From positions 1-36,643 of IMG/VR virus record IMGVR_UViG_3300036716_000469: 36,643 nucleotides of DNA, one strand, 5' to 3'. This DNA is from a virus. Both the position numbers and the translations under genes were made by a program. Positions 15,398 through 30,258 of this stretch are shown here, in pieces. The first letter of the stretch is position 1. Each line of letters begins with the position of its first letter. The notes under the pieces were generated by a model. It saw only the letters and a program-made list of their open reading frames with translations. It made no database searches and was not told the origin of the DNA.

Positions 15398-15553
15398 ATG
15401 ACTTTTATAATTTGGCACTTACTAGCAATAGTATCAGTAATGGCAATATCTTTTGTTGCTGGATTTTGGTATGCGAATAATTCTTATTTAAGACATAAGA
15501 GAACAGTCGACAGTATAACTAATGTTAAGTACAACTTACATCAACGTAATTAA
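15398..15553 (+). CDS. Small single-span membrane peptide
   Basis: A 51-codon ORF starts at ATG 15398, two bases after the previous stop, with GGAAGGAG upstream. Residues 2-25 (FIIWHLLAIVSVMAI, then SFVAGFWY) form one hydrophobic membrane span, followed by a charged tail (RHKRTVDS). The arrangement fits an inner-membrane peptide with its N terminus outside. Its last 32 bases overlap the start of the radical SAM gene, so the two are coupled. Candidate roles are a membrane anchor, a lysis or inhibition peptide, or, more speculatively, a substrate of the radical SAM protein. Such tiny membrane ORFs are common in phage replication regions. Confidence 0.6.
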   Translation: MTFIIWHLLAIVSVMAISFVAGFWYANNSYLRHKRTVDSITNVKYNLHQRN

Positions 15554-16562
15554 ACATTTACAGGTAGAAACGACAACTTATTGTAATTCGTTTTGTCCAG
15601 GATGTTCTAGGAATATAGACGGTGGAGAAGTCAATCCGCATATTGGCTTAGAACATATGAGTATGGAAACATGGACAAAGTTATTTGAGAACGATAGTAT
15701 ATCTGCTTTAACTTTAAATGGTACGTTTGGTGATACAATGATGAATCCTAATATTGTAGAAATGTTAAATGAAGTTGCTAATACCGGTCATATAACAGAT
15801 ATGGTTTCTTTACATACTAATGGAGGATTAAGAAGCCAAGACTACTGGCGAGATTTAGCAACTGTTTTAAAAAGATTTAAAAACCATGAAGTAGTATTTT
15901 CAATTGATGGGTTAATTGATACTAATCATATACATAGACGGGGTACTGATTTTAATAAAATAATAGATAATGCTAAAGCATTTATTCTAGCAGGAGGAAC
16001 AGCCTCGTGGCGTATGATTGTATTTGATCATAATAAGCATCAAATAGAAGAAGCAAAACAGTTTGCTAAAGAATTGGGATTTAGATATTTTATGGTAAAA
16101 TCAAGTTATGATAAAATAATGTATGCTAAAAAATATAAAAATATGCCAGAAGCAACTATTACAGCACCAGATAATAATGTTTACAAAAAGTTAAAAGAAC
16201 TTCAAGAAGATTTTTACCCCGAAAGAGAAGGAGTTCATTTTTGGGCAAATGAAAACAAAAGTAAGGAATTTACAAACACGTTTAATTGTCCTTGGTTAAA
16301 TGATTTAGCATTACAAGTTGATGTTAAAGGAAGAATATGGCCGTGCTGTTACATTTCAGATAATGCTAATAACACATTTTATGATAATGAATGGTCGATC
16401 AGTTCTATTAATGAAAACTTTCCGCAAGACTTTAACAACATTAATAAATTTAACCTAATAGAGATTTTATCTCACAAGTTTTTTACTGAACACTTAAATA
16501 ATGTTTGGGAAAATAAAGAATCACAAATATGTGAAAATTGTATGAATAAGGAAATAATATGA
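15522..16562 (+). CDS. Radical SAM/SPASM-like protein
   Basis: The cluster motif is CNSFCPGC, with C21, C25 and C28 of CxxxCxxC. The next landmarks, [13 protein letters not shown] and [10 protein letters not shown], fit the SAM-binding barrel. The C-terminal Cys-rich part (FNCPWLNDL, then RIWPCCYIS, then ICENCMN) resembles a SPASM or twitch domain that holds auxiliary Fe-S clusters, as in peptide- and cofactor-modifying enzymes. It is a close paralogue of the protein at 23508-24596; both share TNG, (I/V)FDHNxHQ and an AKELGF-type segment. The ferredoxin gene overlaps its end by 4 bases, suggesting that the electron donor is made with it. The substrate is unknown. The length of 346 residues is typical. 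Confidence 0.88.
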
Positions 16563-18129: not shown

Positions 18130-18879
18130 ATGTTAAAAACTACAACATATTTAACAACACAATCACACTCAGTAGTATATAGCACTATTGGGTCAACACC
18201 GAACAGGAATATGACTATGTATGCTCGTAATTTAAAAGTTTACAAGGGTGCTAAAAACCCTATTGTAATTGAAATGAAAAACAATGATCAGAAAGCCATA
18301 GATATTACAGGTAAATCATTTGTCTTTAATATCCTAGATCAAGAAGAACGTCAAACACTTATTAGTAAAGGCGGCACAATTATTAATGCTAGTAAAGGTA
18401 AAGTACAATTTGATATAACAGAAAGTGACTTACAAAAAGTTAGTGGAATGTATTTAAATTATAGTGTTTTAGATAACACTAATGGCGAAAGAGGTGTAGT
18501 ATTTGTAGATGATCAATTTGGTGCTATGGGCAATATAGAAGTTGTAGACGGCCCATATACAGAATTTAGAGATTCACAATCAATTACATTGCCGGATATT
18601 AACCCAGTGGCAGTACAAGCCTATCCCCATTTAAATGAAAATGCGGCCTTACACACCGCTCAAGTATACTTTACAAACTTTACAGGAACGTTAAAAATTG
18701 AAGGCAGTATGGCGGCTATAAGTGAATTAGATAATGATGAATGGTTTACTATTACTACAGAAACATATACAGACCAAGCAGATAACGTTTATATTAACTT
18801 TAATGGTGTATATTCGCACATTAGGTTCTCTAGAACAATAACTAGTGGAACTGTTGATAAGATATTATATCGCTTATAA
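18130..18879 (+). CDS. Virion baseplate/fibre-type protein with a BppU-like N-terminal domain
   Basis: The 249-residue protein has a beta-rich N-terminal region (VYKGAKNPIVIEM, then IDITGKSFVFNIL, then GGTIINASKGKVQFDITE). It resembles the immunoglobulin- or BppU-like domains at the start of many phage baseplate and fibre proteins, which carry the same GG...ASKGKVxF(D/T)(I/L)T pattern. The C-terminal part (LHTAQVYFTNFTGTLKIEGS, then YINFNGVYSHIRFSR) looks like a second beta-sandwich. It follows a late promoter and has AAAGG before the ATG. Its stop is directly adjacent to the stop of the convergent lipase gene (TTATAA). A structural role is likely; its position in the particle is inferred. 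Confidence 0.72.
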   Translation: MLKTTTYLTTQSHSVVYSTIGSTPNRNMTMYARNLKVYKGAKNPIVIEMKNNDQKAIDITGKSFVFNILDQEERQTLISKGGTIINASKGKVQFDITESDLQKVSGMYLNYSVLDNTNGERGVVFVDDQFGAMGNIEVVDGPYTEFRDSQSITLPDINPVAVQAYPHLNENAALHTAQVYFTNFTGTLKIEGSMAAISELDNDEWFTITTETYTDQADNVYINFNGVYSHIRFSRTITSGTVDKILYRL

Positions 18880-19593
18880 ATTGCTATTTTTTGTATGTTT
18901 AATATAATGGGCTATCCCGTGGTCCCTAAAACCATCTGCTAATTCAAACTTTTTAATTGCTTGCCAATGTCCTCTCATTTTATCTTTAAAACGTTGCCAA
19001 AGGCTCATGCCATTTCTAAGTTTCCCATAACTGTTTAAGTAGCAAAAAGTACCATGGTGTCTAAATCCCATAATAAAAAAAGGAACAGTAGGAACTAAAT
19101 CATTATTATTACGCCATCTGTAGTGTTTAACAAGAACATGGTCTATAAATTTTTTATTACCAACACGAGGTGACCCAAACGTATATAAGCATTCGGTTTG
19201 TTTTTCTAGTCTACTAGCGGCGATTGTTGCCATTGCTCCACCTAAACTATGTCCGGTTATAAACAACGGTTTAGTTGCACTTATTAAAGGAATAATATCA
19301 GCCCATAGTTTCTCAACTTCGTCATAAAACCCATCGTGTACTTCGCCGTCTGTTTTAGACTTCATCTTCCAAGATTTTAAATCTGCGGCTATATCATTTA
19401 ATTCTTTAGGTTGTGTACCTCTAAATGCTAATACTTGTTCGGTGTTATTAGTTAAAATCATTGCTTGAGCGCCGTCTTTATTGAGGTATTTTATTTTTTT
19501 ATACCCTAGTTTTTTTAATTTTTCAGTTAATTTGTCGTTGAATGGTTTGTATGCTAAGCCTGATATATTAGCAAAATGACTACTTCTATTCAT
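18874..19593 (-). CDS. Class 3 (Lipase_3 family) lipase
   Basis: The start is placed at ATG 19593, which has AAAGGAG 5 bases upstream. A longer reading to 19653 lacks this. The 239-residue product carries the GHSLGG nucleophile elbow with S116, an acidic D165 in RNNNDLVPTVPF, and a histidine in GFRDHGIAHY (H225 or H229), completing a Ser-Asp-His triad in the usual order. FRGT (58-60) supplies the oxyanion-loop region. Lipase_3 enzymes hydrolyse triacylglycerols or phospholipids. No signal peptide is seen, so it would act inside the cell or in the virion. It sits on the minus strand inside a plus-strand late block, hinting at separate acquisition or timing. A role in envelope breakdown or lipid use is a reasonable guess. 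Confidence 0.88.
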   Translation of the reverse strand: MNRSSHFANISGLAYKPFNDKLTEKLKKLGYKKIKYLNKDGAQAMILTNNTEQVLAFRGTQPKELNDIAADLKSWKMKSKTDGEVHDGFYDEVEKLWADIIPLISATKPLFITGHSLGGAMATIAASRLEKQTECLYTFGSPRVGNKKFIDHVLVKHYRWRNNNDLVPTVPFFIMGFRHHGTFCYLNSYGKLRNGMSLWQRFKDKMRGHWQAIKKFELADGFRDHGIAHYIKHTKNSNL

Positions 19594-19613
19594 GAGATCT
19601 CCTTTAATAACTG

Positions 19614-19620
19614 TATTTAA
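19614..19620 (-). promoter_or_regulatory. Candidate late promoter element for the lipase gene
   Basis: On the minus strand TTAAATA followed by C (19620-19613) lies about 20 bases before the lipase ATG and just before its AAAGGAG site. It resembles the other late elements. No clear -35 accompanies it. Confidence 0.4.
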
Positions 19621-19653
19621 CCGATTTAGGTTATAAATGAATTTTAAGATCAT

Positions 19654-19704: not shown

Positions 19705-19953
19705 ATGAAACGACGAACAAGATCATTATTAGAAGAGCTAGATGAAATAGCGATCAACAAAGACCGAAAACACGTGGTGGAAAGTAGAGCAACTCACCTA
19801 ATACAATCATCGATTAATTTAATACAAATGATTAAAGAAAATTTTTCTGAGGAAGTATCGCAAGATTTAGAAAAAAGATTTATAGCGGCAATTAAAAAAC
19901 AAGAACCAGTTAAATTTACTAGAGGGATTAGGAAGTTAAAAAATGATAATTAA
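19705..19953 (+). CDS. Small charged helical protein, unknown function
   Basis: An 82-residue protein starts at ATG 19705, six bases after the GGAG at 19695. A TTG reading 12 bases earlier would place the site inside the gene. It is almost wholly helical and strongly charged (MKRRTRSLLEELDEIAINKD, then SQDLEKRFIAAIKKQEP, with a basic end RGIRKLKN). Such proteins in T4-like late regions may act in head assembly, but no family was recognised. Its stop lies within the start region of the next gene (11-base overlap), so the two are coupled. Confidence 0.72.
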   Translation: MKRRTRSLLEELDEIAINKDRKHVVESRATHLIQSSINLIQMIKENFSEEVSQDLEKRFIAAIKKQEPVKFTRGIRKLKNDN

Positions 19954-20611
19954 TGAAATTGATGTAGAAAAATATGTTAAAAAACATCAACAAGCACAGA
20001 AAAAATCATCAAAATTATCAGGTGGTTTCTCAGGAAAAGGCGGCCAAATAGGCGAAGTTATAGACATGGTTAAAAAGCATCATGCTTTTTGGACTCATGC
20101 TATTAAAAAGAATGAACATTTCGCATTAACTAATCCACAAGGATTGCTTAATGCTTGGATAGATAAGTTTTACGGATCTAGTTCAGTTAACATTAATCAT
20201 AAAAAAGCCAGTACCAATGGTGCTATAAATTATAAGCCTGGAACAAAAGGTGCTAATGCTATATTTAGAATTGTAACAGCAATATTGTTAAAACCAACTA
20301 GTGAGCAACAAGCACAATTATTCAGAGATCAAATTGAAAAACATTTACCCGATGATATAAAAAAAGAATTAGGCGAACCAATGCCTAAGCCTAAGGACAC
20401 AAACCCAGATGCGGCACAAAATCAAGTGCCTAATAAAGTTTATAAAGCCGGCGACACAGTTTCGTGGACTACAGCAAAAGGCACACCTGCTTCGGGTGTT
20501 GTTACTGGTGAAGAAGTAAAGCCAGGATATACTCAAGTAAAAACTAAAAAAGGTGCATTAATAGCCGTTAATTTTAATAAAACAGCACATACACATCAAG
20601 CAGGATCATAA
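19943..20611 (+). CDS. Late-region protein with CTS-like N terminus and SH3-like tail
   Basis: The 222-residue product begins MIINEI, one of six late proteins here with an M-x-hydrophobic-x-E-hydrophobic start. It continues with a Lys/Gln/Ser-rich stretch (KKHQQAQKKSSKLSG), a helical middle and a Pro-rich linker (GEPMPKPKDTNPDA). It ends in a compact beta segment (KAGDTVSWTTAKGTPASGVV) that looks like an SH3-type barrel in the style of small GDxVSW domains. No enzyme motif is visible. The position just before the KxDG protein suggests a virion or capsid-internal protein. The function is unknown. Confidence 0.68.
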   Translation: MIINEIDVEKYVKKHQQAQKKSSKLSGGFSGKGGQIGEVIDMVKKHHAFWTHAIKKNEHFALTNPQGLLNAWIDKFYGSSSVNINHKKASTNGAINYKPGTKGANAIFRIVTAILLKPTSEQQAQLFRDQIEKHLPDDIKKELGEPMPKPKDTNPDAAQNQVPNKVYKAGDTVSWTTAKGTPASGVVTGEEVKPGYTQVKTKKGALIAVNFNKTAHTHQAGS

Positions 20612-20614
20612 AAT

Positions 20615-21877
20615 ATGTTAATAACAGAAGTACTAGAGCCAGGTAGCAAATGGCAAACATTAACCGAATCTAGCGATAAAAATTTACATTTAGAACATTT
20701 AGAAGATTTAATTTTAAATGATGGGTATCAAGGTGCCGTTACAGCATTAAAGTATGTTAATGCTTTAAGAATGATGCTTAATGTTGGCGGTGAAGGACAA
20801 AGTAAAGTCACAGTTAAATGGGACGGTGCTCCTGCTATATTCTGTGGAACAGACCCAGTTGATGGCAAGTTCTTTGTAGGTACTAAAGCAGTATTTGGTA
20901 AAACAGAAAACAAAGCGGCAAAAACAAGTGCAGAGATTGACAATTGGTATCCAGGAGAAGGCCTTAATAAAAAACTTAAAATAGCACTCTCAGAGTTAAG
21001 TAAATTAGGTATACAAGGTGTTCTACAAGGTGATATGATGTTTACTGCCGACGATATACAAACTGCTACAATAAGCGGCGAAGATGTTTATACATTTACA
21101 CCTAATACTATTACATATTCAGTACCGGTTGATAGCGATATTGGTAAAAGAATTAAATCTGCCAATATAGGTATAGTATTTCATACAACATATACAGGCG
21201 AAACACTAGCAGATATGAAAGCAGAGTTTGGAGCCAAAGTTGGTAGTTTGAAACAGACAAGTAGTGTATGGTTCGACGATGCTTATTATAAAGATGTAGG
21301 CGGAAAAGCAACACTAACAAGCCAAGAAGATAAAGTAGTTTCAAATGGTTTAGGACAAGCACAAGTTACACTAAAAAAAGCAACACCAGAAACATTTAAT
21401 AAATTTTTAGAAGACCCTGCTCTTGCTACTTGGTTAAAACCTTTTATTAATAAAAGAATTACAGCAGGTACTAGTGTTGGGGAACCAATACAGTTTGTAA
21501 AAGAATTTATAGAATATTTTAAAGAAAAAATGGAAGGCGAAATATCTAAACTTAAAACTGGAGCAGAAGGCCCGGCGGCACAAAAGAGATTAGAAAAGAT
21601 ATTAGCAACAGAAAAATTTGTAGAAGATAATTTAAACACAATATTAATAGTAATGGCAGTATACAAACAAGTTATACAACTTAAATTAAAACTATTAAAG
21701 AAATTAGAACGTATTGAACAAAGTGTTGGCACATTCTTAAAAACAGACGATGGCTATAAAGTTACAAACCCTGAAGGATTTGTAGCATTTGGTATGGAAG
21801 GTGGAGCAGTTAAACTTAATGATAGACTTGAGTTTAATAAAGCAAACTTTAATCAAGCAAAGAGTTGGAGCAAATAA
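20615..21877 (+). CDS. KxDG-motif nucleotidyltransferase/ligase-like late protein
   Basis: The 420-residue protein contains an apparent set of covalent nucleotidyltransferase motifs. K68-W-D-G71 in VTVKWDGAPA matches motif I (KxDG), whose Lys would be adenylated. VLQGDMMF (136-143) resembles motif III, IGIVFHTTYTG (185-195) resembles IIIa, NPEGFVA (385-391) resembles motif IV (EGxV) and GAVKLNDR (397-404) resembles motif V. These are the landmarks of DNA and RNA ligases and capping enzymes, but a large helical insert (about 260-370) separates III and IV. From memory, relatives in cyanophages carry only a domain of unknown function (DUF6267), so ligase activity is an inference. The start MLITEV fits the capsid-targeting-like signature. 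It follows the preceding gene by three bases. Confidence 0.72.
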   Translation: MLITEVLEPGSKWQTLTESSDKNLHLEHLEDLILNDGYQGAVTALKYVNALRMMLNVGGEGQSKVTVKWDGAPAIFCGTDPVDGKFFVGTKAVFGKTENKAAKTSAEIDNWYPGEGLNKKLKIALSELSKLGIQGVLQGDMMFTADDIQTATISGEDVYTFTPNTITYSVPVDSDIGKRIKSANIGIVFHTTYTGETLADMKAEFGAKVGSLKQTSSVWFDDAYYKDVGGKATLTSQEDKVVSNGLGQAQVTLKKATPETFNKFLEDPALATWLKPFINKRITAGTSVGEPIQFVKEFIEYFKEKMEGEISKLKTGAEGPAAQKRLEKILATEKFVEDNLNTILIVMAVYKQVIQLKLKLLKKLERIEQSVGTFLKTDDGYKVTNPEGFVAFGMEGGAVKLNDRLEFNKANFNQAKSWSK

Positions 21878-22530
21878 TGGCTTTTGAATTTATAAAAGAA
21901 GAATTAGCAGAAGCAAGAATGTTTAAGAGCCCAACAAGAATTGCGGCTAATAGTCAAGGACAATTAGCAGATACTTTATATTCTCATTTACTTGGTTTAC
22001 AAGTAATGAAATATGAGAATCCAAAGGCGGCACAGGCTTATGCTAAAAAGACTTTAAGTTTACCGTTTAATAGTGTACGTCCTGGTGCTACAGATTTACA
22101 TAACTTAATAGCAAGTGTAGATAAAACACCTCAAAACCAAGTAAGAGGTTATTTACAAGGTATTGCTAATGGTAGATTAGATACTCAAGCAGATAGACGA
22201 AACTTAATCATGTTACAACGTGGTTTAGGTGTTAGAAGCGGAGCAACAAATCAAATGAGGCGTGTTATTGCTGACTGGCCTAGAATGTTACCATCAGAGC
22301 GTAAAGTAGCGGCTACTAGACTAGGGTTTGCTTTGAATCATAGTGCTAGAGGTAGTGATTTTATGCCAGGCTACCATAAAACAATGAGAAAGAAAGACTT
22401 AGGCATAGACCAAGCGAAGAGCCCACTTAAAAAGAACCCTCTTGTATGGGGTGCTGTAGCCGGTGCGGCATTATATAAAGCAATACGAGACCCTCGTTTA
22501 AAGGCTCGTATAGGCGGAATCAAAAATTAA
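21877..22530 (+). CDS. Basic late-region protein, unknown function
   Basis: The start is ATG 21877, overlapping the previous stop by one base (TAATG) with GGAG just upstream. A TTG 12 bases earlier is less likely. The 217-residue product is basic and mostly helical, with no motif I recognise. Its N terminus MAFEFIKEEL has an IxE tripeptide like a prohead protease site but only partly fits the signature of its neighbours. The C-terminal region has a short Ala-rich hydrophobic stretch (VWGAVAGAALYKA) followed by basic residues (RDPRLKARIGG), which could touch a membrane or DNA. It ends about 30 bases before a late promoter. A virion role is probable from position only. Confidence 0.68.
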   Translation: MAFEFIKEELAEARMFKSPTRIAANSQGQLADTLYSHLLGLQVMKYENPKAAQAYAKKTLSLPFNSVRPGATDLHNLIASVDKTPQNQVRGYLQGIANGRLDTQADRRNLIMLQRGLGVRSGATNQMRRVIADWPRMLPSERKVAATRLGFALNHSARGSDFMPGYHKTMRKKDLGIDQAKSPLKKNPLVWGAVAGAALYKAIRDPRLKARIGGIKN

Positions 22531-23507: not shown

Positions 23508-24596
23508 ATGAATTATCTAAATCTCAACGAAATTACAGGATTACACATAGAACATACAAGTAAATGTAATTTACTTTGTCCTCAATGTGCTAGGGTTGAT
23601 AGTGATGGCAAAAGGAATCCAATACTTCCAATGGAAGAACTAACTATTGACGACTATAAAAGAATACTAACACCTGAGTTTGCTAAACAAATAAAACGTA
23701 TATTTTGGTGTGGTAACTATGGCGATAGTATTGCTAGTAATAACTTTTTAGAATGTTTAGAATTTATAAGACATTCAGGAGTTCAAGGACTAACTGTTGT
23801 AACTAATGGTAGTGCCCAGTCACCTGCTTGGTGGACTAAGATAGCACATATATTAAACAGAGATACTGATAGAGTAGATTTTAGTGTAGATGGTTTAGAA
23901 GATACTAATCACTTATATCGAATCAATAGCAACTGGTCTAAGTTAAAAGAGAATATTACAGCATTTATCGATGCTGGAGGAAATGCCCATTGGGATTATT
24001 TAATATTTGATCATAACATACATCAAGTAGCACAAGCAAAAACTCTTGCTAAAGAAATGGGATTTAAAAGTATTAATTTTAAAAATACTAGTAGGTTTGT
24101 AAAAGTAAGTGATTTTAATGAAGTAATGGAAATAAAAACAAAAAATAAAAACATTATTTCTAGTAAGGAAAATAAAAATAAAACAAAGTACGATCAAATT
24201 ATAGACAAGTTTGGAGATTTCAATTCTTATGTAGATCAGACACCTATAACGTGTAAATATAAAAAAGACAAGTTTGTTTATATTGATTTTCAAATGAAAC
24301 TATGGCCTTGTTGTTGGGTAGGAGCACCTACTTATTTTGATAACGAAGAAAATATCCAAAAAGCACAGTTAAAAGCATTACAAAGTCGTTATGAAAAAGA
24401 TTTTAATTCATTAAAAAAACACACACTACAAGAAGTATTAGAACATGAATTTTATAATAAAGATTTAAACGATAGTTGGAAAAATACAATGGCAGATAAA
24501 AATTCAAAATTATTTACGTGTGGAAGAACTTGTGGAAGTGATTATGAATTTAGTAGTCAAGATGGCACATTTAATTCTCAAAGGTATACATTATGA
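23508..24596 (+). CDS. Radical SAM/SPASM-like protein in the late region
   Basis: The cluster motif is CNLLCPQC, with C20, C24 and C27. The next landmarks match those of the protein at 15522: WCGNYGDSIAS, VVTNGSAQSP, VDFSVDGLEDTNHLY and LIFDHNIHQVAQAK. C-terminal cysteines (ITCKYKK, then LWPCCWVG, then TCGRTCG) suggest a SPASM-like auxiliary cluster domain. It differs from its paralogue in having a lysine-rich insert near residues 205-225. No ribosome-binding site precedes the ATG, so the transcript may be nearly leaderless. Its end overlaps the next gene by 4 bases. A radical enzyme inside a structural block could modify a virion protein; this is a guess from position. Confidence 0.87.
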   Translation: MNYLNLNEITGLHIEHTSKCNLLCPQCARVDSDGKRNPILPMEELTIDDYKRILTPEFAKQIKRIFWCGNYGDSIASNNFLECLEFIRHSGVQGLTVVTNGSAQSPAWWTKIAHILNRDTDRVDFSVDGLEDTNHLYRINSNWSKLKENITAFIDAGGNAHWDYLIFDHNIHQVAQAKTLAKEMGFKSINFKNTSRFVKVSDFNEVMEIKTKNKNIISSKENKNKTKYDQIIDKFGDFNSYVDQTPITCKYKKDKFVYIDFQMKLWPCCWVGAPTYFDNEENIQKAQLKALQSRYEKDFNSLKKHTLQEVLEHEFYNKDLNDSWKNTMADKNSKLFTCGRTCGSDYEFSSQDGTFNSQRYTL

Positions 24597-25539: not shown

Positions 25540-25818
25540 ATGCTAGTCGAAGAAATCACACAAGAAACAACAATGGCATGGGCCAGGTCAGGCAAGAAAG
25601 TTGTCCGTAAGTACCGCTGTTCTACAGGCAGGCTCAAAGGCAAAATTGTCTCAACGCCAGGTGCTTGTTATAAAGCACCCAATGTTAAGAAACGTATTAA
25701 GTTAATGATTACGAAAGCAAAGTTTAAACGAAGAAATGCTTTAAAATCTAAAAGAACAAAACGTATTAACCCGGCAAGTCGCAGGGTACAATCAATGAAT
25801 AAGGCAATGAGAAAATGA
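25540..25818 (+). CDS. Very basic small protein, possible packaged DNA-binding protein
   Basis: The 92-residue product is dominated by Lys and Arg (SGKKVVRKYR, then KRIKLMITKAKFKRRNALKS, then KRTKRINPASRR) with two conserved-looking cysteines (RCSTG and GACYK). It would bind nucleic acid strongly. It starts MLVEEI, fitting the capsid-targeting-like signature of six late proteins here. An alternative start at ATG 25573 (MAWARSGK) would remove this segment. Relatives of unknown function occur, from memory, in T4-like marine phages. A role in condensing or accompanying packaged DNA is plausible. The start has no ribosome-binding site but lies right after a late element. The next gene overlaps by 4 bases. 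Confidence 0.72.
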   Translation: MLVEEITQETTMAWARSGKKVVRKYRCSTGRLKGKIVSTPGACYKAPNVKKRIKLMITKAKFKRRNALKSKRTKRINPASRRVQSMNKAMRK

Positions 25819-27167
25819 GTTGGTTTGAATTATTAGAAACAGGACCGTCACAAGGAAAAGTTACTAAAATTTCCCCTGATGGTAAAAAGATATCTGTACA
25901 AACAGGCCCAGGACAAACTATGAATTTGGATTTAGATAAAGATCCAAACATTGATGTTAGTTCAAATGGTGGCAAAACATCTATTAAATTAAATCACGAT
26001 AATAAAAATAAACTTAAAAAGCCAGGCGGAGCAAAACCTGGACAAACAGTTTCTATAGAATCTAAGAAAATAAACGAACACGAAATGGGTTTACTTAGAA
26101 ATGTTGCAAGACAAATGGAAGCAGACGCCCATGCAGGCGACTACACCGCAATTGAAGAATTACTACACAACGTTTCAACAGAAGAATTAGAAGCCTTTCT
26201 TTCCGACCACAGGTCGCCAGACTGGGCAGACGAATCAGTTAAAGAAGCAGACGTAACAGTAGATAACGAAGGTAACATAGCAGGATACTTAGATACAATT
26301 GACGAGTATATTTCTATGCTATTTAAAGGTAAAGAATTACCCCTCGCTCATAAAAACGAGATAGCATATAGAATTCAAAATGCTGTAGACGATATTAGAA
26401 CTAGAGAACTTGGATTAAAGCCAAGTAACATTAGAGCTCAATACGCAAATACAGAATCGGTTCAAAAAAAAAGACTAGTTGACACTGGTTTAGACCTCGA
26501 AGAAGGCCCAAACGATAAACATATTTTCAAAGCGATTTTCATGGCTGGTGGTCCCGGTTCTGGTAAATCTACTGTAGCCGACACAGTCTTAAAACAATTT
26601 GATCTTAAAGTTATTGATTCAGATAAAATGTTTGAACATTTAATGGCAAAGAAAGGTATGGATGTAGGTGATCCAGAACAAATTTATAGTCCAGATGGAC
26701 AAGCAACTCGAGATCACGGAAAAAATCTAGTAGCAAAACAAAAAGAATTTTGGCTTGATGGTAAATTAGGTGTGGTAATAGATGGAACTGGCCGAGATAT
26801 AGAAAAAACAGCAAAAATAAGACAGGAAATGATGGATTTAGGGTATAGCACAATGATGCTATATGTTAATACTAAATTAGCAGTAGCACAAGAAAGAAAC
26901 TTACAACGTAAAAGAAGATTGCCTATATTAAAAGTAGAACAAATGTGGCGAGCAGTACAAGAAAATATAATGAAATTTCAGCAAGTATTCGGAGCAAATA
27001 GATTTATTGTTATAGACAATTCAGAAGGGTTAGAAGATCCTCAACGAGCAGAAGCATTTACAAAAGTAGAAGGAAGTATAAGAGCATTCTTACAACAAGT
27101 ACCTAGGAATAGAATAGCTCAAGCCTGGCTTGATAAAAATAAAAAATTCGGCTGGCGAATGCATTAG
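25815..27167 (+). CDS. P-loop kinase (zeta-toxin/polynucleotide-kinase-like) with an N-terminal extension
   Basis: The C-terminal half has a textbook kinase core. Walker A is GGPGSGKST (245-253), IDSDKMFE (267-274) carries acidic residues that could orient the substrate, VIDGTGRD (321-328) is a second conserved strand-loop, and RNLQRKRR (361-368) is an Arg-rich lid. This order suits zeta toxins and polynucleotide 5'-kinases. The first 90 residues are a Gly/Lys-rich beta module, and residues 90-200 are helical. The start MSWFEL fits the capsid-targeting-like signature. With the KxDG protein at 20615 it could form an end-healing and sealing pair, as T4 Pnkp and Rnl1 do. The substrate is not established. 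A toxin-type kinase acting on UDP-sugars is an alternative. Confidence 0.8.
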   Translation: MSWFELLETGPSQGKVTKISPDGKKISVQTGPGQTMNLDLDKDPNIDVSSNGGKTSIKLNHDNKNKLKKPGGAKPGQTVSIESKKINEHEMGLLRNVARQMEADAHAGDYTAIEELLHNVSTEELEAFLSDHRSPDWADESVKEADVTVDNEGNIAGYLDTIDEYISMLFKGKELPLAHKNEIAYRIQNAVDDIRTRELGLKPSNIRAQYANTESVQKKRLVDTGLDLEEGPNDKHIFKAIFMAGGPGSGKSTVADTVLKQFDLKVIDSDKMFEHLMAKKGMDVGDPEQIYSPDGQATRDHGKNLVAKQKEFWLDGKLGVVIDGTGRDIEKTAKIRQEMMDLGYSTMMLYVNTKLAVAQERNLQRKRRLPILKVEQMWRAVQENIMKFQQVFGANRFIVIDNSEGLEDPQRAEAFTKVEGSIRAFLQQVPRNRIAQAWLDKNKKFGWRMH

Positions 27168-29574: not shown

Positions 29575-30258
29575 ATGATTACTGAAAAATTTAATTATAC
29601 ACAATTAAAACGAAAAAGTGTTGAAGGCAAACGTCTTTATACAACACCTGAAGGTACGGCAGTACCTAGTGTAACAACAATCTTAGATAAAACCAAATCT
29701 GAAGAAAAACGATTAGCATTAGCAAATTGGAAGAAAAGGGTAGGTCCTCAGGCGGCTCAAGAAATTGTCACTGAAGCATCGGGTCGCGGAACAAGAATGC
29801 ACAAATACTTAGAAGATTATTGTATTAATGATGAATTAAAAGCGCCAGGTTCAAATCCTTTTAGTCAACAAGCAAATGATATGGCTAAAGTTATTGTTGA
29901 AGAAGGTATGTGTAATTTTACTGAAATATGGGGGACTGAAATACCGTTGTATTTTCCAGAATTATATGCTGGAACAACAGATGCTGTAGGAGTATATAAC
30001 GGTGACCCAAGTATTATTGATTTTAAACAAACTAATAAACCTAAGAAAGAAGAATGGGTAGATGATTATAAAACACAATTAGTGGCTTATGCCCTCGCCC
30101 ATAACGAAGTATATGGTACAACTATTAAACAGGGCGTTATTTTAATGTGTAGTAAAGACCTATTATACCAAACATGGACAATTAAAGGCGACGAATTTGA
30201 ACTTTTTACAGACCACTGGTTAAATAGAGTACAATCATACTATCGACTTATAGCATAA
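29575..30258 (+). CDS. PD-(D/E)XK-type exonuclease, Cas4/MGME1-like
   Basis: The 227-residue protein shows the core motifs of the RecB/Cas4/MGME1 nuclease group. GRGTRMHKYLED (70-81) is the motif with a conserved His, AGTTDAVG (132-139) supplies the first acidic residue, IIDFKQTNK (147-155) is the D-x-K catalytic core, and QLVAYALAH (168-176) is the trailing helix. Such enzymes cut single-stranded DNA ends and are common in T4-like marine phages. An in-frame TAA lies immediately before the ATG, so the start is certain. No ribosome-binding site exists and the promoter is 7 bases away, so the transcript should be leaderless. It is an early-type gene inside a late region. Confidence 0.87.
   Translation: MITEKFNYTQLKRKSVEGKRLYTTPEGTAVPSVTTILDKTKSEEKRLALANWKKRVGPQAAQEIVTEASGRGTRMHKYLEDYCINDELKAPGSNPFSQQANDMAKVIVEEGMCNFTEIWGTEIPLYFPELYAGTTDAVGVYNGDPSIIDFKQTNKPKKEEWVDDYKTQLVAYALAHNEVYGTTIKQGVILMCSKDLLYQTWTIKGDEFELFTDHWLNRVQSYYRLIA

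Follow-up and report, generated by a model that had tools for sequence, protein, structure and literature searches.

The nick-sealing RNA ligase of Naegleria gruberi (NgrRnl; PDB 5cot and 6vt1) has the nucleotidyltransferase core, motif order and K/E/K positions that are predicted for the DUF6267 protein encoded at 20615-21877 of virus record IMGVR_UViG_3300036716_000469, which was analyzed over its 36,643 bases (the window). NgrRnl has an N-terminal OB domain; DUF6267 lacks such a domain but contains a helical insertion. T4 Rnl1 (PF09511) shares with DUF6267 the motif I sequence KxDG (x is any residue), a basic residue about 20 positions further on (K119 in Rnl1, K91 in the window protein) and a spacing of 13 residues between motifs IV and V, but differs in having an E in motif III, KxK as motif V and, at its C-terminus, an RNA-binding domain. 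T4 Rnl2 and REL1 (PF09414) have the core fold in common with DUF6267, while their motif I is KxHG and their motif V KxK; Rnl2 also has a C-terminal domain. In T4 gp30, the DNA ligase (PF01068), an OB domain and a motif VI are found, unlike in DUF6267. The two belong to the same superfamily and gp30 marks a possible functional slot for DUF6267, although DNA ligases are structurally less similar to it.

RLIG1 (C12orf29) is an active KxDG RNA ligase consisting of the core without the RNA-binding domain of Rnl1, and its best Dali match is NgrRnl (PMC11494293). The core-only build and NgrRnl as best structural match are also found for DUF6267; RLIG1 is a different family, set beside DUF6267 by description, and its absence from the VIA-align matches listed below excludes nothing. 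In MthRnl and PAB1020 another residue stands at the place of the second motif V lysine (T248 and V, respectively; PMC3514331). These enzymes keep the first motif V lysine, as does DUF6267, but carry further domains, and archaeal RNA ligases score lower in structural comparison (Z ~6).

The T4-like cyanophages and pelagiphages rank among the most abundant marine viruses. No homologues of g30 and rnh were found in cyanomyoviruses according to a review (rnh only in S-PM2), which considered distant homologues to be possible and host enzymes to be the likelier answer (PMC2984593). The choice was therefore between a host enzyme and an unrecognized ligase of the phage itself (PMC2984593).

The open reading frame (ORF) on the plus strand encodes 420 residues from an ATG and matches PF19782 (DUF6267) end to end (E 8.4e-107, 376/376 positions in a Pfam profile search). 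It also matches phrog_455, a PHROG of unknown function. Annotated cyanophage records file relatives of the protein as cluster T4-GC 71, "hypothetical protein". An initial annotation of the window, made from the sequence, had assigned the gene to a family treated as unknown, and this agrees with PF19782 being unannotated. Neither an NCBIfam search nor a PDB sequence search (phmmer) with the window protein gave a match, and a literature search found no mention of DUF6267 or phrog_455. PADLOC gave no defense-system match for the protein, and its identity as a defense-system protein was dropped. The window holds a single DUF6267 copy. In the S-T4 record two identical-scoring copies were found near the two record ends (L014, 5778-6368 and 177347-177937), which is probably a terminal repeat of the assembly.

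Conserved motifs and predicted fold of DUF6267

Relatives were gathered from phage records, viral contigs and genome bins, and conservation was counted on an alignment of 213 full-length DUF6267 relatives; these counts may be inflated, since most loci were retrieved with patterns covering the KxDG or GTKSxF region. Residues K68, D70, G71, P73, G78, K91, Y168, H190 and T191 were invariant (213/213). E387, G388 and K400 were present in all 211 sequences reaching them, with gaps in the other 2, and position 140 was always acidic (D in 209 sequences, E in 4). The relatives found by tblastn, for which no motif patterns were used, were mostly of 24-45% identity; KxDG was present in 18 of 18, and EGxV and the K after it were present wherever a locus that was read extended that far. 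K68 and E387, which the initial annotation had singled out, are thus kept across very divergent relatives. Judged from the spacing, K91 is probably equivalent to K119 of Rnl1 and R55 of Rnl2.

The initial annotation had also read KWDG (68-71), GDMMF (139-143), IVFH (187-190), EGFV (387-390) and VKLNDR (399-404) as nucleotidyltransferase motifs I, III, IIIa, IV and V in their usual order. All five were found at these positions, and their order is beyond chance: a loose ordered pattern, KxDG...EGxV...K, fitted 155 of 215 DUF6267 ORFs, while among the 655 other ORFs in the same loci with a length of 250 residues or more it fitted 2. A chance motif match was ruled out by this rarity together with the near-invariant residues.

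An AlphaFold2 model of the window protein (the long form) was built on 92 aligned sequences and was confident, with a predicted local distance difference test (pLDDT) of 90.7 and a predicted template modeling score (pTM) of 0.87. In the model K68 closes strand 64-68, motif III lies on strand 136-144, the IIIa position on strand 185-194, motif IV on strand 388-392 and motif V on 398-401, followed by the last helix (404-413). The chain stops 20 residues past K400. We infer the active-site pocket from this model. A large helical insertion had been predicted between motifs III and IV; it is indeed present (residues ~236-365), but in the model it is located between IIIa and IV. The insertion is shorter in relatives of about 300 residues.

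Structures were compared by VIA-align. For the long form, which was compared with Foldseek candidates only, ranks 1-14 were RNA ligases of four families with Z scores of 6.7-7.9 and root mean square deviations of 3.6-5.0 Å over 162-196 residues (NgrRnl 7.9, T4 Rnl1 7.3, REL1 7.2 and T4 Rnl2 6.8). DNA ligases followed with Z scores of 5.3-5.9, mixed with unrelated helical rows. Because a Z score below 8 was not decisive and the Foldseek search of the long form against the PDB was swamped by the helical insertion, we also modeled a short form, a relative of ~300 residues with a shorter insertion (pLDDT 94.3, pTM 0.89). All 50 of the 50 matches listed for it were polynucleotide ligases, with Z scores from 8.5 to 5.2. 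The best match was again NgrRnl (Z 8.5, 3.8 Å, 176 residues, 14% identity), and T4 Rnl1 (7.8), T4 Rnl2 (6.7; 1s68), fungal tRNA ligase (6.6), 1xdn (6.2) and archaeal RNA ligases (~6) scored higher than DNA ligases (5.2-5.8). Foldseek gave weak E-values for the short form, but most of its top matches were ligases or a capping enzyme: NgrRnl and DNA ligases came first, and a guanylyltransferase and an NAD ligase were lower in the ranking.

At the C-terminal ends of the long-form alignments residue 410 pairs with Rnl2 234, 413 with Rnl1 252 and 414 with NgrRnl 339. These ends are located 10-14 residues past K400 and 9-13 residues past what we take to be the first motif V lysine of each ligase (the residue roles in Rnl1, Rnl2 and NgrRnl are presumed, while the T4 letters themselves were checked), and the register is therefore kept with motif V. 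The predicted fold is that of a nucleotidyltransferase core, with RNA ligases, T4 Rnl1 and Rnl2 among them, as the best matches of both forms.

It is therefore very probable that DUF6267 has the core of a covalent nucleotidyltransferase. That it belongs, as a divergent family, to the polynucleotide-ligase branch, with a predicted strand-joining activity and a predicted polynucleotide substrate, we consider probable. The conservation and the predicted fold are results of the analysis, and the suggestion of a ligase or adenylyltransferase made in the initial annotation gains support from the conserved K68 and E387 and from the predicted core, the activity itself and the nucleotide donor being deduced. 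By analogy with known ligases, K68 would attack the alpha phosphate of ATP and carry the AMP, D140 and E387 would bind metal, and K91 and K400 would hold phosphates. The AMP would then move to a 5'-phosphate end, and this end would be joined to a 3'-OH. With no C-terminal or OB domain present, the nucleic acid is probably held by the helical insertion located between IIIa and IV.

By sequence profiles alone, no kinship to ligases is detected. The window protein had no match to PF09511 (Rnl1), and 1 of 92 relatives matched at E 0.017. Rnl1 was the best of 15 profiles in hhalign, aligned over motifs IV-V, but its probability of 3.5% was not significant (13 unrelated profiles used as controls gave 0.2-1.8%). 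For PF09414 (Rnl2) there was no Pfam match, the hhalign comparison with T4 Rnl2 was not significant, and the Rnl2-type C-terminal domain is absent in the model. PF01068 (DNA ligase) gave no match either. An hmmsearch of the PDB with the 92-row profile gave weak matches only, and in most of these the helical insertion was paired with helical proteins of unrelated kinds. Since no profile links it to Rnl1, Rnl2 or DNA ligases, we file DUF6267 as a new family within the superfamily.

Distribution of DUF6267 and the missing cyanophage ligase

DUF6267 was found by tblastn in 469 phage records, of which 371 have Synechococcus in their name, 61 have Cyanophage and 24 have Prochlorococcus. A gp41 helicase query found 376 Synechococcus and 61 Cyanophage records; both tallies were made by record name and the two sets were not intersected. 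DUF6267 is thus near-universal in T4-like cyanophages and as common as gp41. We searched 17 DUF6267-bearing Kyanoviridae genomes (including P-HM1, which is recorded under Eurybiavirus without a family name) for PF01068, PF01653 (NAD ligase), PF09414 and PF09511. None of the four was matched in 16 of the 17 genomes. Only S-CRM01 had a ligase match, a small canonical ATP-dependent DNA ligase of 293 residues (L298, 287-1168). T4, the positive control in the same searches, matched PF01068, PF09414 and PF09511.

Because DUF6267 is near-universal, 16 of 17 genomes carry no match to another ligase and g30 is reported to be missing, we propose that DUF6267 is the missing polynucleotide ligase, and we regard it as the best candidate for a ligase that T4-like cyanophages and pelagiphages encode themselves. 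Its distribution and the absence of matches to other ligases are results of the searches, whereas its substrate is a matter of deduction. For a near-universal cyanophage gene, both a specific activity and the catalytic lysine are hereby predicted. If active, the enzyme would be built unusually for a ligase, as it lacks the second domain that is common among them, and it might be delivered with the virion.

A number of observations weigh against a ligase. The Pfam, PDB-profile and hhalign links to ligases were all not significant, and VIA-align Z scores near 8 are modest. Most ligases need an OB or C-terminal domain, and neither model has one after motif V. Motif III has mostly D where E is usual elsewhere. 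Motif IIIa is atypical: the strand reads IGIVFHT, while the usual motif has an aromatic residue stacking on the base, then D. Motif V has no second lysine, as in MthRnl and PAB1020. S-CRM01, G004, XaC1 and EniLVp02 hold both DUF6267 and a canonical DNA ligase. Finally, a host ligase can substitute for g30, so that its absence proves nothing (PMC2984593).

Several of these points also bear on the substrate. A DNA ligase replacing T4 gene 30 and sealing Okazaki nicks would fit the reported lack of g30 (PMC2984593), the ligase census, the near-universality of the family and the position of DUF6267 beside gp43, uvsX, gp41 and primase. The gene is located two to four genes after gp41 in several genomes, which is consistent with a role in replication. 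However, the fold is closer to RNA ligases, no OB domain is present in either model, the host ligase could serve, and S-CRM01, XaC1 and EniLVp02 encode a DNA ligase in addition to DUF6267. We consider this form of the ligase reading somewhat unlikely. The choice between RNA and DNA is nevertheless close to even, with a slight lean toward RNA from the fold and toward DNA from the neighborhood. The position after uvsX/gp41 in relatives also means that the label "late region", given to the gene by the initial annotation, is not established.

N-termini and gene neighborhood

The internal proteins of T4 carry an N-terminal capsid-targeting sequence of about 10 residues that is cut after (L/I)xE (PMC9026906). 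T4 IPI starts with MKTFKEF...ITEA. Many long DUF6267 proteins were found to start with M(K)xFxx(F/Y)(L/I)xE, followed by A, S or D, directly before a conserved KNxHLEH. The strict motif was present in 56 of 118 long forms and 1 of 91 short forms, compared to 2 of the 260 genes located at positions -5 to -2 and to 6 cases among 4611 interior methionines; it was worded after the sequences had been seen, and kinship among the sequences makes p-values overstated. The N-terminus of the window protein, MLITEVLEPGSKWQTLTE, fits partly, with ITE and LTE but without the FxxF part, and does not match the strict motif. Such a propeptide suggests that some long forms are injected with the genome. Since the strict motif is found in only part of the family and the window protein fits partly, packaging is put forward as a hypothesis for part of the family.

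Two cytidylyltransferases detected in virions start with MRFRQFIIEA and MKNFSSFLTEA. The N-terminus MxxFxxF(L/I)xE is seen repeatedly, both on long DUF6267 proteins and on the cytidylyltransferase-like and kinase proteins encoded next to them (L010-L129; L281 6188-7276; L282 6609-7469). It may mark a set of enzymes that marine T4-like phages inject.

Table 1. Coordinates of the DUF6267 gene, its predicted motifs and neighboring genes in the window.
Feature	Position	Strand	Basis
Upstream neighbor, conserved with DUF6267 gene in close clade, function unknown	19943..20611	+	
DUF6267 (PF19782) protein, predicted covalent nucleotidyltransferase / polynucleotide ligase core	20615..21877	+	profile match + model
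Low-confidence N-terminal tail, residues 1-18, with ITE and LTE, where many relatives have a T4-like propeptide	20615..20668	+	model + N-terminus comparison
HLEHLED, residues 25-31, near-invariant family signature upstream of motif I	20687..20707	+	alignment
Motif I KWDG (68-71); K68 is the predicted AMP-accepting lysine	20816..20827	+	alignment
Invariant K91, post-motif-I basic position	20885..20887	+	alignment; cf. T4 Rnl1 K119, Rnl2 R55
Motif III QGD (138-140), D140	21026..21034	+	alignment + model
Motif IIIa-like strand IVFHT (187-191), atypical	21173..21187	+	alignment + model
Helical insertion, residues ~236-365 (~130 residues, five to six helices), between IIIa and IV	21320..21709	+	model
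Motif IV EGFV (387-390)	21773..21784	+	alignment
Motif V VKLNDR (399-404); second KxK lysine replaced by N402	21809..21826	+	alignment
Downstream neighbor, overlaps DUF6267 gene, conserved in close clade, function unknown	21865..22530	+	
Protein with a P-loop kinase domain (AAA_33 / zeta-toxin-like); weak match to a polynucleotide-kinase PHROG	25815..27167	+	

The ligase could be an RNA-repair enzyme that reseals tRNA or other RNA cut by host defense. A kinase and an enzyme that activates nucleotides would be its partners, and in some phages it would be injected along with the genome. This agrees with RNA ligases being the best fold matches, well above DNA ligases, and with the excess of capsid-targeting-like N-termini on the long forms. 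P-loop kinases are located near some DUF6267 copies, and T4 Rnl1 and RLIG1 are precedents (PMC11494293). On the other hand, the position after uvsX/gp41 in many genomes suggests replication. The P-loop kinase of the window is at most a possible partner; it is located ~4 kb off and is a putative polynucleotide kinase at best. The DUF6267 protein of S-SZBM1, which starts with MAKNTHLEH and thus lacks the propeptide, is absent from a list of 30 virion proteins (PMC9146016). RNA repair is in our judgment a serious possibility that falls a little short of probable. A broader proposal would be that DUF6267 is a new ligase family and the near-universal missing ligase of marine T4-like phages, and that many of these phages produce it as a precursor with a propeptide, package it in the head and inject it with the genome as part of a repair or counter-defense set. 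Taken as a whole, we hold this proposal to be rather unlikely.

A cytidylyltransferase-like gene (HIGH-motif, NMNAT-like) was found at most three genes downstream of DUF6267 in 51 of 103 long-form loci and at most three genes upstream in 0 of 83. The short-form loci had one in 4 of 64, and the window has none near DUF6267. In BFVD the 591-residue S-PM2 protein A0A0M6VVW4 and the uncultured-phage protein A0A6J5L7B8, both named cytidyltransferase-like, align with the whole DUF6267 model and are probably natural fusions of DUF6267 and its neighbor. The virions of S-SM1 contain such a cytidylyltransferase (T4-GC190; PMC3037559), as do those of S-SZBM1 (PMC9146016). The virion of S-CREM2 likewise holds one, and its gene is not adjacent to DUF6267; the excerpted part of the S-CREM2 proteome table has no entry at the DUF6267 position, 58914-59762 (PMC10665884).

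The downstream bias and the fusion-like matches, together with the atypical motifs IIIa and V, would also fit a nucleotidyltransferase that is not a ligase. Such an enzyme would form a lysyl-bound nucleoside monophosphate and transfer it to a protein, to a small molecule or, in the manner of a cap, to the 5' end of RNA, and it would share a pathway with the adjacent NMNAT/cytidylyltransferase-like enzyme. This is unlikely, as all 50 of the 50 structural matches listed for the short form were ligases and the guanylyltransferase matches in Foldseek were weak. A catalytically dead ligase fold serving as a structural or packaging protein could explain the packaging-like N-terminus on some relatives, and the ligase activity of DUF6267 is itself only predicted. 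The catalytic lysine and acids are, however, among the most strictly conserved columns, which is the opposite of decay, and we consider a dead fold very improbable. A polynucleotide ligase remains our preferred reading.

The gene just upstream of DUF6267 belongs to several unrelated-looking families of ~350-500 residues with a D...(S/E)LK-like stretch (e.g., TPKTDIVLGNKKVSLKKGSSQ), as in L071 (2-1189), L053 (1011-2120), L124 (6785-7873), L010 (6926-7984) and L013 (5000-5899). These genes suggested PD-(D/E)XK nucleases by eye, and Pfam gave no support for this identity. In the window, the ORF at 29575-30258 had a weak PDDEXK_1 match (E 0.0019), short of the Pfam cut-off. The ORF at 18874-19653 on the minus strand, lipase-like by eye, is found at the same place in relatives (cluster 12). 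Two radical SAM proteins, encoded at 15522-16562 (with a SPASM domain) and 23508-24596, flank the region and are unusual cargo for a T4-like phage.
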